Positions 4,333-18,871 of a DNA stretch of 56,253 bases are shown piece by piece (the first letter of the stretch is position 1; each line of letters begins with the position of its first letter). Under the pieces are notes generated by a model. That model had not been told where the DNA came from, made no database searches, and saw only the letters and a list, made by a program, of their open reading frames with translations. A program made the position numbers and the translations under genes. This stretch comes from Acidimicrobiaceae bacterium (GTDB lineage: Bacteria; Actinomycetota; Acidimicrobiia; Acidimicrobiales; Aldehydirespiratoraceae), in the NCBI GenBank assembly GCA_002729125.1, contig PBTQ01000048.1:1-56253 (forward strand), written 5' to 3'.

Positions 4333-7176
4333 ATGACTGATCTCAACAAGTACCCGCCAGCCGAGCAGTGGCACGACTGGACCGAACTCGACGCCAAGGC
4401 GTGGCCCGACAAGGTCGAGAAGAACTACACCCTTGTGCCCACCACCTGCTTCAACTGCGAAGCCGGGTGTGGACTCGTCGCCTACCACGACAAAGAGACC
4501 GGCGAGATCCGAAAGATCGAAGGCAATCCGCACCATCCGGGCAGTCGTGGCCGCAATTGCGCCAAGGGCCCCGCCACGATCAATCAGATCTATGACACGG
4601 AGCGGGTCATGTTCCCGTTGCGCCGCGTCGGCGAACGCGGCTCGGGCCAGTGGGAACGCATTTCGTGGGAGGAGGCGCTTGCCGAGGTTGGTGAGAAGAT
4701 CCGCACTGCCTTCATCGAGGGTCGCAAGAACGGTGTGATGTACCACGTCGGCCGACCCGGCGAAGAGGGGTACACCGACCGTGTGCTCAAGGCGTGGGGC
4801 GTCGACGGCCACAACAGCCACACCAACATCTGCTCGAGCAACGCCCGGATCGGCTACCAGAGCTGGATGGGCCACGACCGGCCCAGCTCCGACTTCGCCA
4901 ACGCCAGGGTGATCTTCTTGATCTCCTCACACCTCGAGTCGGGCCACTACTTCAACCCGCATGCGCAGCGCATCATCGAGGCGCAGGCCAACGGCGCCAA
5001 GATCATTGCGTGCGACCCGCGCCTCTCGAACACCGGTGCCAAAGCTGACTATTGGCTGCCTACCTGGCCTGGCACCGAGCCGTTCCTGTTGCTCTCGATC
5101 GCTCGCCTGCTGATCGAGTCCGAGGAGTGGAACGCCGAGTTCGTCGAGCGGTGGGTCAATTGGGAGACCTACCTGAAGGAGCGGGCGCCTGCGAGGCCGG
5201 TCGAGTTCTCGCAGCTCCGCGAGGTGCTGCTCGAGGAGTACGCCGACTACACCCCCGAGGCCGCCGAGCAAAAGACCGGCATCGACGCCGACACCATCTG
5301 CGAGATCGCTGCGGTGATCGGGGCCAACCCGACGAAGTTCGCCAGCCACAACTGGCGGGCCGCCGGCGCCGGCAACATGGGCGGCTGGCAGGTCGCCCGC
5401 TGTCTCTTCTTCCTGAATGTGCTCACCGGTTCGGTCGCCACCAAGGGTGGCACCGCCGGCAATGGCATGAACAAGTTCAAGCCACACGACCCGATCGGCG
5501 CGCCGAACACCCACGACTGGAACCATCTCGAGTGGCCCAAGGAGTTCCCGCTCGCCTATCACGAGATGTCGATCCTGCTGCCGCACTTCCTTAACGAGGG
5601 TCGCGGCAGGCTCGACGTCTACTTCAGCCGGGTCTACAACCCGATCTGGACGAATCCCGACGGCTTCACCTGGATGGAGGCGCTGAAGGACGAAACGAAG
5701 GTGAAGTGTCACGTGGCGCTCACCCCGACCTGGTCCGAGACGTCGTGGTTCGCCGACTATGTCCTCCCGATGGGTGTGGGCGCCGAGCGTCACGACATCA
5801 CCTCGTACGAGACCCATGCCGGTCGCTGGGTCAGCTTCCGCCAGCCGACCTTCCGCCGTTTCGCCGAGATCCAGGCCGGCGGCGACCTGCCCGAGGGCAC
5901 TCGCACGTTCGAGTACAACCCGGGTGAGGTCTGGGAGGAGAACGAGTTCTGGATCGATCTCTCCTGGAAGATCGATCCTGACGGGTCGCTCGGCATTCGC
6001 AAGTGGTTCCAGTCACCCGACGACGCCGAGAAGCCCCTCAGCGTCGACGAGTACTACGGCAAGATGTTCGAGAACGAGGTCCCCGGCCTCGCCGACGCGG
6101 CCGCCGAGGTGGGGGAGACCCCGCTCGAGTACATGCGCAACCGCTCATCGTTCGCCGTGCCGACCGATCCCTACGAGCCCTACGAGCGCTCGGTCTCGGC
6201 CGACGCCCTTGCGGGTTGCGAGGTCGATGCTGATGGCGTGTACCGCAAACCCGGCACCCCGGGTTCGTGGGATGGCGACCTGTCGACCATCTCCGACCTG
6301 AAGCTCGCCCCGCTCGGCGACGGTTCGCCTGCGCTCGAGATCGACGGTGAGGCCAAGGAGGGCTTCCCGACACCGTCGAAGAAGCTCGAACTGTTCTCCA
6401 CCACGCTCAAGGAGTGGGGCTGGCCTGAGTACGCCACGCCGAAATGGATTCCGAGCCATGTGCACTGGGAAGATCTTGACATGGCGGGTACGGAACGCAT
6501 CCTGCTCCCGACCTTCCGCATTCCGACCCTGATCCACACGCGTTCGGCCAACTCCAAGTGGCTCAACGAGATCAGCCACCGGCACCCGTTGTGGATTCAC
6601 CCGAAGGATGCCGAGAAGCTCGAGATCGAGGAGAGCGGTCTCGTGCGCATCACGACCCGCATCGGTCACTTCGTGATCCAGGCCTGGCGCACCGAGGGCA
6701 TCCGCCCGGGTGTCGTCGCTGCCTCGCATCACATGGGCCGCTGGCGGCTCGAGGATGACAAGGCCCGTTCGTGGGGCACCGGCAAGGCGTCGATCACCGC
6801 CCAGAAGAACGACGGGGAGGGCACCACCTGGAAGCTCAAGCGGGAGCAGGGGATCGAGGCCTACGACTCTGACGACGACGACACGTCCCGCATCTGGTGG
6901 AAGGACACTGGCGTGCATCAGAACGCGACGTTCTGTGTGCAGCCCGACCCGATCTCCGGCATGCAGTGCTGGCACCAGCGGGTGCACGTCACGCCGGCTC
7001 AGCCCGGTGACGAGTACGGCGACGTCGTGGTCGACACGGCGAAGTCCCGTGAGGCTTACCTCGACTGGATGAGCAAGACCCGCCCGGCCGGCACCAACGA
7101 CTCCGGTCTGCGTCGTCCGCTCTGGTACGCCCGTCCGCTCAAGCCGAACCCCAGCGCCTACCTGCTCGACGACTGA
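4333..7176 (+). CDS. Molybdopterin-bis-MGD oxidoreductase catalytic subunit (DMSO reductase superfamily)
   Basis: 947 aa. A [4Fe-4S] site is formed by C39, C42, C46 (CFNCEAGC) and C76 (RNCAKG). The probable Mo/W ligand is C167 in HTNICSSNARIGY. Other family marks are GAKIIACDPRLSNTGAKADYWLPTWPGTE, the ETSWFADYVLPMGVGAE segment and a C-terminal beta-barrel domain. The residue after the ligand is Ser, not the His that follows Cys/Sec in formate dehydrogenases, so a sulfur-species (Psr/Phs/Soe-like) or other substrate is at least as likely as formate. No twin-arginine signal is visible (begins MTDLNKYPPAEQW), suggesting a cytoplasmic face as in SoeABC. Its partner is the preceding fused FeS-NrfD subunit; substrate unresolved. 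Confidence 0.88.
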   Translation: MTDLNKYPPAEQWHDWTELDAKAWPDKVEKNYTLVPTTCFNCEAGCGLVAYHDKETGEIRKIEGNPHHPGSRGRNCAKGPATINQIYDTERVMFPLRRVGERGSGQWERISWEEALAEVGEKIRTAFIEGRKNGVMYHVGRPGEEGYTDRVLKAWGVDGHNSHTNICSSNARIGYQSWMGHDRPSSDFANARVIFLISSHLESGHYFNPHAQRIIEAQANGAKIIACDPRLSNTGAKADYWLPTWPGTEPFLLLSIARLLIESEEWNAEFVERWVNWETYLKERAPARPVEFSQLREVLLEEYADYTPEAAEQKTGIDADTICEIAAVIGANPTKFASHNWRAAGAGNMGGWQVARCLFFLNVLTGSVATKGGTAGNGMNKFKPHDPIGAPNTHDWNHLEWPKEFPLAYHEMSILLPHFLNEGRGRLDVYFSRVYNPIWTNPDGFTWMEALKDETKVKCHVALTPTWSETSWFADYVLPMGVGAERHDITSYETHAGRWVSFRQPTFRRFAEIQAGGDLPEGTRTFEYNPGEVWEENEFWIDLSWKIDPDGSLGIRKWFQSPDDAEKPLSVDEYYGKMFENEVPGLADAAAEVGETPLEYMRNRSSFAVPTDPYEPYERSVSADALAGCEVDADGVYRKPGTPGSWDGDLSTISDLKLAPLGDGSPALEIDGEAKEGFPTPSKKLELFSTTLKEWGWPEYATPKWIPSHVHWEDLDMAGTERILLPTFRIPTLIHTRSANSKWLNEISHRHPLWIHPKDAEKLEIEESGLVRITTRIGHFVIQAWRTEGIRPGVVAASHHMGRWRLEDDKARSWGTGKASITAQKNDGEGTTWKLKREQGIEAYDSDDDDTSRIWWKDTGVHQNATFCVQPDPISGMQCWHQRVHVTPAQPGDEYGDVVVDTAKSREAYLDWMSKTRPAGTNDSGLRRPLWYARPLKPNPSAYLLDD

Positions 7177-14995: not shown

Positions 14996-15544
14996 TCAAT
15001 CACAGGCGCGGACGGCATCAATGAGCGCCTGGACGGCCGGCCGATCGTCGGGCTCCCCGGCCCAGTGGCCCCAGGTGAGGGTGCCGGAACGATCGATTAC
15101 GAAGTCACCGCCGAGCTGACGAGTGTCCTCCGTGGGTCGTTTGACCGCCGTGAGCTTGCGGCGTGCGAAGATCTGCACATAGCGCTTCAGGTTCGTGAGG
15201 CCCCAGATCTGCCAGAACCCGGCCGACCCGAGCCCGTAGGCCCGGTACGTGCTGCGGTCCGGGTCGATGAGGGTGACGATCTTGATCCCGGTCCAGCGCA
15301 CATAGCGCTCGAGTTCTGGGGTTGACGTGAAGGCGACGAGCACGACTTCGGCGTCACCGAAGGCTGCCAACTGCCGGTTCACGCCGACGGCGTGATGGGT
15401 GCAGGGCAGTCAATGGATGTGGCGGTGGAAGATCACCACCACGGGCCGGCCCCGGCGATCCGAGAGGCGCCATCGCGTCCCGTCCGGACCGAAAAGGTCG
15501 ATCTCGGGGGCCGGTGAGCCGAGCGGCGGACGTTCGGGATCCAT
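14996..15544 (-). CDS. Peroxiredoxin-like (AhpC_2/PRXL2) protein, probable selenoprotein with in-frame TGA (Sec45)
   Basis: From ATG 15544 the frame reads PPLGSPAPEIDLFGPDG, LSDRRGRPVVVIFHRHIH, then TGA at 15412-15410, then LPCTHH... and continues in the same frame to 14996. Both sides match one thioredoxin-fold peroxiredoxin-like domain: the strand VVVIF before the redox motif, and AEVVLVAFTSTPELERY, YRAYGLGS, LGGDFVIDRSGTL and WAGEPDDRPAV after it. The TGA lies exactly where this family has the first Cys of CxxC, giving U45-L-P-C48 in a 182-aa protein. A hairpin suited to a bacterial SECIS begins at the TGA. Read conventionally, only a 128-aa fragment from GTG 15382 lacking the active-site half would be called. 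Alternatives are a Cys-to-stop mutation or sequencing error. No strong ribosome site is visible upstream. Confidence 0.78.
15368..15412 (-). promoter_or_regulatory. Candidate bacterial SECIS element
   Basis: Reading the mRNA (minus strand) from the TGA: a lower helix pairs UGACUGCC (15412-15405) with GGCAGUUG (15375-15368), five Watson-Crick pairs next to the interior loop plus A-U and two G-U pairs through the UGA itself. After a 9/3-nt internal loop, an upper 7-bp perfect stem UCACGCC / GGCGUGA (15395-15379) carries a GUC apical loop beginning with G. The loop starts 21 nt after the UGA, inside the spacing known for bacterial SECIS elements, which need a G in the first loop positions. It is entirely within the reading frame, as expected. 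Confidence 0.65.
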
Positions 15545-16940: not shown

Positions 16941-18104
16941 TCAGTCCGCCGCTTCGACGGCGACCTTGATGGCGTCGCAGGTTCGTTGCATGTTGCTGCG
17001 GATCTGTTTGCGCCGCCCATTGATCACGGCGACCGGATTCTCCGATGCTTCGGCGAACCCGATCGTCAGATTGTTCTCGGTACCGATCTCCATCGAGAAC
17101 CGCAGCCGACTTCCGACGCCCTGGTCCATGATCTCGAACCGCCAACGTCCACCTGGACTCGCCGGGTCGACCGTGCCCCATTCGAAAACGCGACCTTCCA
17201 CATAGTCGGTGACGTGGTTTTCGATCGACCACTCCATATCGCCGAGCTTGTTGTGGCCCGTGAACGCGGCGCCGAGGCCCCGCGCTTCACCGTTCCACTC
17301 TGCGCCTTGCAACTCCTCGCTGGCGTCCACCGGGAACTCGATGTCGCTGATGAAGGGCCAGACCTTTCGAGGGGCCGCCTCGATGTCGACCTCGGCCACC
17401 ACGCCGAGCCCGTCCTCGAAGTTGACGGCCCCGTCCTCGGATGCACGGGCCTTCGTGAAGCCCCATCGATCGAAGTAGGTGATCTGTTCGGCCGGACGTC
17501 GGGGGGCGGGCTTGAACTCGGTGCCCTTCGTGTAGGCGACCGGAAAGGTCACGATCGTGGTGATGCCCTCGGGGATGCCGAGTATGCCGGCGAGTTCGTC
17601 GACGCTCGCATTAAGGAGGGTTGTCCACGTGCTTCCGAGGCCGCGCGAGCGCAGTGCGAGGTTGAAGCTCCACGCAGACTGGATCACCGAGTCGAACAGG
17701 CCGGGACGGCCCGAGTTGTCGTGGATGCCCCAGATCGCCGCAATGACGAGCGCCGGCGCCTTGGCGAAATGCTCCACCAGGTAGGCGCTCGAGCTGAAGA
17801 CCTTCTCCTTGCTGTGACCACTGCCCTCGAGGCGATCGGCCACATTGATCATGAACTCGCCGTTGCGGGCATAGATCTCGCCGAGCTTGCGCTTGGTGGC
17901 CTCGTCCTTGATCACGACCCATCGGCGACTTGCGTCGTTGCCGCCACTCGGTGCCTGCTCGGCCAGGTCGATGCAATCGAAGATCACGCGGTCGGGTACG
18001 TCGCGATCGAAGTCGAGCCGCTTGCGTACTGAGCGGGTCGTGGTGAGGAGGCGGTCGATCTGGTCGAGAACGAAGCCGGCTTCGTTGCGCTTGTCGGAGG
18101 TCAT
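16941..18104 (-). CDS. Nitroreductase-SRPBCC fusion protein
   Basis: 387 aa. Residues about 10-230 are an FMN-dependent nitroreductase fold (TTRSVRKRLDFDRDVPDRVIFDCIDLAEQAPSGGN; RWVVIKDEATKRKL; SAWSFNLALRSRGLGSTWTT; IPEGITTIVTFPVAYTKG). Residues about 250-385 are an SRPBCC/polyketide-cyclase-like lipid-binding domain (VVAEVDIEAAPRKVWPFISDIEFPVDAS...GSRLRFSMEIG). The frame is open further upstream to 18908 but overlaps the SCO6745-family gene out of frame; ATG 18104 begins the conserved domain. The fusion suggests reduction of a hydrophobic substrate held by the SRPBCC cavity, which is inference. Confidence 0.85.
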   Translation of the reverse strand: MTSDKRNEAGFVLDQIDRLLTTTRSVRKRLDFDRDVPDRVIFDCIDLAEQAPSGGNDASRRWVVIKDEATKRKLGEIYARNGEFMINVADRLEGSGHSKEKVFSSSAYLVEHFAKAPALVIAAIWGIHDNSGRPGLFDSVIQSAWSFNLALRSRGLGSTWTTLLNASVDELAGILGIPEGITTIVTFPVAYTKGTEFKPAPRRPAEQITYFDRWGFTKARASEDGAVNFEDGLGVVAEVDIEAAPRKVWPFISDIEFPVDASEELQGAEWNGEARGLGAAFTGHNKLGDMEWSIENHVTDYVEGRVFEWGTVDPASPGGRWRFEIMDQGVGSRLRFSMEIGTENNLTIGFAEASENPVAVINGRRKQIRSNMQRTCDAIKVAVEAAD

Positions 18105-18121
18105 CGGGACTCGATTCTGGG

Positions 18122-18871
18122 TCAGCCCCGGTGGGAGCGGGCGGCCTTGGCCAAGTCCCGAAGGTCGGTGCGTTCGTCGTCGGTGAGCACGTCGAGGTCG
18201 ACGGCGTGCATCTGATCTGTGGCGGCTTCGGCCGCCTCGCGGGCCTCGACGAGGTCGGCGACATCGGGGTAGGGCTCGGGCCAACCGAACATCTTGGCGT
18301 TCCACGCACCGGCCGGCCCCGACAGGATCGCTTCGAGCGGGCCGATCCCCGCCGCCTGGATTGCGACGGCATGACGGCTGAATCGGAGTTCGCGCATCAC
18401 CTGTGCGAGTTGGAACGTGCGGGCCGGGCCGGGATTGGCGGGTCGTGGCATGTCGCGCCAGCCGACGAAGAGGGGAGCGCCGAGTGGCGACGCGGACGCA
18501 ACGACCTTTTCGAGGATCTCGCCGAGCCGCTCGACCCCCTCCATGCCGGCGAGCTTCTCCGCTCCCCATTCCTGACAGATCTGGGTGTAGACCGCCGCAC
18601 CCTCGGCCGGGTTCATCGCAGCGCGGCCCACCTCGACCATGGCCATCATGGTCGCCGGCTCCCAGAAGTAGGCGGCGCCGACGACATTGTCGACCGGGCA
18701 GTCGCCGAGAACGCCGAGGCGACCGACGGCGTAGCCACCCATGCCTTCGGCGGTGAGGCCGAGTTCGGCACCTCGTCGCACGGTCGACTCGTCGAGGAGC
18801 CAGGCCATGGCGAGCATGCCGATCGATCCTCGGAGGCTGCGGGCGACGGTGAGACTGTCCATGGCCGCCAT
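18122..18871 (-). CDS. SCO6745-family conserved actinobacterial protein
   Basis: About 249 aa all-helical protein resembling the SCO6745 family: ELGLTAEGMGGYAVGRLGVLGDCPVDNVVGAAYFWEP near the N terminus, then WPEPYPDVADLVEAREAAEAATDQ toward the C terminus. Function of the family is unknown. Start is ATG 18871 or 18862; the longer frame to 19123 overlaps the divergent MFS gene. It lies 17 bp upstream of the nitroreductase fusion on the same strand, so the two are probably co-transcribed. Confidence 0.7.
   Translation of the reverse strand: MAAMDSLTVARSLRGSIGMLAMAWLLDESTVRRGAELGLTAEGMGGYAVGRLGVLGDCPVDNVVGAAYFWEPATMMAMVEVGRAAMNPAEGAAVYTQICQEWGAEKLAGMEGVERLGEILEKVVASASPLGAPLFVGWRDMPRPANPGPARTFQLAQVMRELRFSRHAVAIQAAGIGPLEAILSGPAGAWNAKMFGWPEPYPDVADLVEAREAAEAATDQMHAVDLDVLTDDERTDLRDLAKAARSHRG

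Follow-up and report, generated by a model that had tools for sequence, protein, structure and literature searches.

A Predicted SelL-Related UxxC Selenoprotein Gene in an Acidimicrobiia-Type Actinomycete

Introduction

Peroxiredoxin-like selenoproteins that combine the PF00578 domain with a UxxC or UxxU motif, in which U is selenocysteine (Sec), represent an established prokaryotic class (PMC2398784, PMC9312934, PMC13188914), and the published classes are broad. The related redox protein SelL is an animal selenoprotein, found among vertebrates in fish, and its two Sec residues are inserted with a single SECIS element (PMC3316567, citing Shchedrina et al. 2007). A full-text literature search returned no paper linking Acidimicrobiia with selenoproteins and selenocysteine.

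To these systems we add a gene from an Acidimicrobiaceae genome (GenBank assembly GCA_002729125.1), located in a stretch of 56,253 nucleotides of contig PBTQ01000048.1, referred to here as the window. With a probability of about 0.96, we read it as a SelL-related (NF040769) selenoprotein gene of the AhpC/TSA superfamily from an Acidimicrobiia-type actinomycete, in which UGA inserts Sec at residue 45 of a UxxC oxidoreductase. The gene shares PF00578 and UxxC with the prokaryotic thiol:disulfide oxidoreductases of peroxiredoxin-like type, and UxxU is found among its homologues. Its own actinobacterial subgroup, with the motif FHRHxxULPC, is unnamed in PMC13188914, PMC9312934, and PMC2398784, as judged by keyword search. 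Compared with SelL as published descriptions give it, the product would be a redox protein of related type whose two redox residues are spaced two apart, but SelL has two Sec residues, whereas the window gene has one and a putative bacterial SECIS element inside the coding region.

Gene structure and family assignment

Translated with TGA as U, the minus-strand frame 15544-14996 contains exactly one internal TGA (codon 45, 15412-15410) and is otherwise intact (Table 1). The motif around this codon is FHRHIH-U-LPC-THH (U45-L-P-C48). The initial annotation had proposed a continuous frame from ATG 15544 across the TGA, of which a standard caller would report only a 128-amino-acid (aa) fragment without the active site; both statements were borne out, the frame being 182 residues long and the standard-code open reading frame (ORF) list containing only the GTG-start part that follows the internal TGA. 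The Pfam AhpC-TSA match (PF00578; 8.1e-15, 55.3 bits against a cut-off of 26) extends over residues 9 to 155 and crosses the TGA, as expected from the earlier suggestion that both sides belong to one fold. The full-length frame is not a product of chance, since this match spans the TGA, residues 1 to 44 are conserved and constrained, and the TGA is present in every homologous locus covering the site.

TABLE 1 Features of the selenoprotein locus, with coordinates given as positions in the window
Feature	Position	Strand	Basis or remarks
SelL-related selenoprotein gene (predicted)	14996..15544	-	ATG 15544, stop TGA 14998-14996, 182 aa; translation, NF040769, and Pfam AhpC-TSA
In-frame TGA read as Sec45, first position of UxxC	15410..15412	-	All 71 aligned loci have TGA; L123 (TGC), L093, L098, L103, L113 have Cys here
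TGC codon of Cys48, presumed to be the resolving partner in UxxC	15401..15403	-	Cys in 65/71 loci, TGA in 6/71; invariant when TGA is read as C
128-aa C-terminal fragment, standard-caller product	14996..15382	-	Start GTG 15382; standard-code ORF list
Predicted bacterial SECIS upper stem-loop, UCACGCC-GUC-GGCGUGA	15379..15395	-	Predicted; loop 21 nt past UGA

The NCBIfam model NF040769, "SelL-related redox protein," matches the product with 130.4 bits (residues 11 to 177 on model positions 2 to 172 of 173), and a six-frame genome search gave 121.6 bits. Both values lie above the curated whole-protein cut-off of 120 bits, which the score exceeds only modestly, and they uphold the SelL-type assignment made at the outset. 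All 46 members of the homologue alignment match the model; F39, R41, C/U45, and C48 are invariant across them, and the window product has the U/C-x-x-C/U motif after F-x-R-H. The family includes Sec and Cys versions, and the window gene shares with it the full-length match and the F-x-R-H-x-x-[U/C]-x-x-C motif. It differs in belonging to the FHRHxxULPC subgroup, mostly from Acidimicrobiia, whereas many better-scoring members read FLRHYGUxFC. On this sequence evidence, the gene is a new member of an already established selenoprotein family.

The neighbors of the gene in the window encode a prolyl oligopeptidase and a PhyH-type dioxygenase. An all-against-all ORF comparison of flanks of up to 4 kb, covering 43 loci and the window, found no conserved neighbor; what was shared was confined to close relatives and small groups or consisted of antisense ORFs that match by chance, and gene context supports no particular substrate. 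Inspection by eye of other TGA codons with a nearby Cys in the window found none convincing. Elsewhere in the window, a single ORF (16944-18140, minus strand) fuses a nitroreductase domain with a polyketide cyclase/lipid-transport (START-like) domain. ARAGORN predicts a tRNA-Ser(cga) at 5488-5564 (minus strand), antisense within a molybdopterin oxidoreductase gene; Rfam has no match there and none across the whole window, and the prediction is probably a false positive.

Conservation and selection at codon 45

Homologues were drawn from the genomes of relatives and from GTDB species genomes and then aligned. Codon 45 is TGA in 71 of the 71 homologous loci that cover the site, a count that overstates independence, as some loci occur in both collections and the surroundings of the site comprise 61 distinct sequences. 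At position 48, 65 of the 71 loci have Cys and the other 6 have TGA, giving UxxU, mainly in Chloroflexi. These homologues with two TGA codons (L071, L074, L077, L078, L080, and L084) resemble the double-Sec motif of animal SelL. Members of the wider family without an internal stop (L093, L098, L103, and L113) read CPFC, with Cys aligned at position 45. L123, from a class-level relative and closer to the window gene than the CPFC members, reads FHRHLACLPC, with the Cys codon TGC at position 45. The genome that carries L123 (G590) has selA and no tRNA-Sec above the cut-off, possibly through Sec loss or an incomplete assembly. The tree requires a minimum of two switches between Sec and Cys. Among sequences aligned over the motif, the comparison of homologues recommended in the initial annotation thus returned TGA or Cys at codon 45 and never an unrelated residue.

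Relative to 92%-identical relatives, the part upstream of the TGA (residues 1 to 44) has a dN of 0.010 and a dS of 0.16 to 0.23, and the part downstream has a dN of 0.040 to 0.044 and a dS of 0.15 to 0.21. These substitution rates indicate that purifying selection acts both before and after the TGA, at least as strongly upstream as downstream. They bear directly on the possibility that translation restarts at GTG 15382 and that the 128-aa C-terminal fragment is the only functional product. Such a fragment is what a gene caller would report, but it lacks both the redox motif and the initial strands of the fold, and the conservation of residues 1 to 44 (dN of about 0.01 against the dS above) makes a restart very improbable.

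Even less probable is that gene decay or an error in sequencing happened to put a stop codon where the motif has its first Cys. A single base change would be enough to turn TGC or TGT into TGA; however, the identical TGA recurs in separately assembled genomes that range from the 92%-identical relatives to members of other phyla, and the frame, constrained upstream at least as strongly as downstream, has no further damage. A sequencing error is very unlikely, since independent assemblies of near relatives likewise carry the TGA, and the conservation of TGA in all 71 loci together with constraint on both sides refutes decay and error alike.

Selenocysteine machinery and SECIS candidate

The host genome was searched family by family. 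It contains a tRNA-Sec (64 bits, above the Rfam cut-off; anticodon UCA) and selA (374.6 bits), selB (289.1 bits), and selD (364.9 bits), each above its curated cut-off. The selA and selB genes are adjacent (contig C72, 144-2101; loci L009 and L016) at one end of the contig. The selB gene is oriented towards that end, and its match breaks off close to the edge, at position 262 of the 581 in the model. All components for Sec are thus encoded and the codon is conserved. Absent machinery, or unrelated residues at this codon in relatives, had been named in advance as observations that would speak against Sec; the machinery and the homologues both favored it. Insertion of a different residue at UGA, such as Trp through a reassigned code or suppression, would likewise leave the frame open, but it is hardly credible given that homologues with a sense codon have Cys, that UGA is also the terminal stop of the same gene, and that the genome has a dedicated tRNA-Sec(UCA) with selA, selB, and selD.

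The selD gene of the same genome (contig C3, 20401-21327; locus L017) has one in-frame TGA, which probably makes the selenophosphate synthetase a selenoprotein too. Selenoproteins encoded by selD are known elsewhere.

Among 198 relatives, selA is present in 33 of the 36 genomes with a strong match to the TGA form (E of at most 1e-20) versus 99 of the 162 others (Fisher p = 3e-4, uncorrected for relatedness). Three draft genomes have the TGA form without selA; one of them has selB (G039), and the other two have tRNA-Sec above the cut-off (G068 and G112).

A candidate SECIS hairpin starts 14 nt past the UGA and has a 7-bp stem, a 3-nt loop (GUC, beginning with GU), and a folding energy of -9.9 kcal/mol. 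It falls within all bacterial SECIS (bSECIS) constraints given in PMC13188914 (loop of 3 to 9 nt, stem of 4 to 16 bp, G in the first two loop positions, 16 to 37 nt past the UGA, and at most -7.5 kcal/mol). For the window gene alone, the hairpin is unexceptional against synonymous shuffles (rank 0.144, about 14% being as good). Over 60 homologues, hairpins of the bSECIS model are stronger than those of synonymous shuffles (mean -8.2 versus -4.9 kcal/mol; median rank 0.19), in a test that permitted loops of 3 to 14 nt, slightly wider than the published range. The general folding z-score downstream of the UGA is weak across homologues (mean z, -0.54), and the bSECIS-restricted test is the clearer of the two for the group. 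The commonest loop placement varies by lineage: +26 in many Acidimicrobiia, +25 in Chloroflexi, and +19 to +21 in Planctomycetes, Deltaproteobacteria, and the window. As shuffles of the window gene do as well in about 14% of cases and the signal is one of the group, we regard the hairpin as supporting, not decisive, evidence for Sec insertion.

Predicted structure and function

The AlphaFold2 model, built with the homologue alignment (pLDDT 86.6, pTM 0.83), has a peroxiredoxin/thioredoxin fold with a helix at residues 46 to 57 directly after Sec45. This model confidently predicts a domain of thioredoxin-like/peroxiredoxin-like type in which Sec45 marks the N-terminal end of helix 1. In thioredoxin folds, the start of helix 1 is the place of the attacking residue. 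A structure search placed peroxiredoxins at the head of the list, with Bcp4 (3hjp) at Z 21.2 (rmsd 2.0, 151 residues aligned), AhpE at Z of about 20, and ResA at Z of about 18. The fold is common to ResA, the Bcp-AhpE peroxiredoxins, and the window product, but identity is only about 20%, and the window product has UxxC where ResA has CxxC and the peroxiredoxins have TxxC.

In sequence alignments, the residue opposite Sec45 is the leading Cys of CxxC in ResA/thioredoxin and the Thr of TxxC in peroxiredoxins, and Cys48 aligns with the second Cys of the ResA CxxC or, in the 3hjp alignment, with the peroxidatic position of peroxiredoxins. The proposal that the TGA falls at the catalytic first Cys of a CxxC motif therefore stands for the ResA/thioredoxin comparison and needs refinement for peroxiredoxins, in whose terms Sec45 takes the place of Thr and Cys48, not Sec45, is at the peroxidatic position. 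Motif and fold together suggest a thiol-disulfide oxidoreductase or thiol-dependent peroxidase role, and the product is most likely a UxxC thiol-disulfide or peroxide oxidoreductase.

In the mechanism that we propose, SelB and Sec-tRNA-Sec, guided by the hairpin just past the UGA, would insert Sec at residue 45. The product of about 20 kDa would fold as modelled and would alternate between two states, one with a reduced selenol/thiol pair and the other with a selenenylsulfide that links Sec45 and Cys48. More speculatively, and in our view doubtfully, the FHRHxxULPC subgroup, which is nearly always Sec and mostly from Acidimicrobiia, might be a functionally distinct actinobacterial redox enzyme, a reductase or peroxidase that depends on selenium and has a partner of its own, and its SECIS hairpin might have been repositioned across lineages while the protein was conserved.

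Implications

The gene adds a well-supported selenoprotein to Acidimicrobiia. Default gene calling truncates it and drops the active site, and such enzymes may be misannotated in this way across the lineage. The window gene and L123 form a natural Sec/Cys pair within the subgroup, which would permit a clean test of the benefit of selenium to the enzyme.
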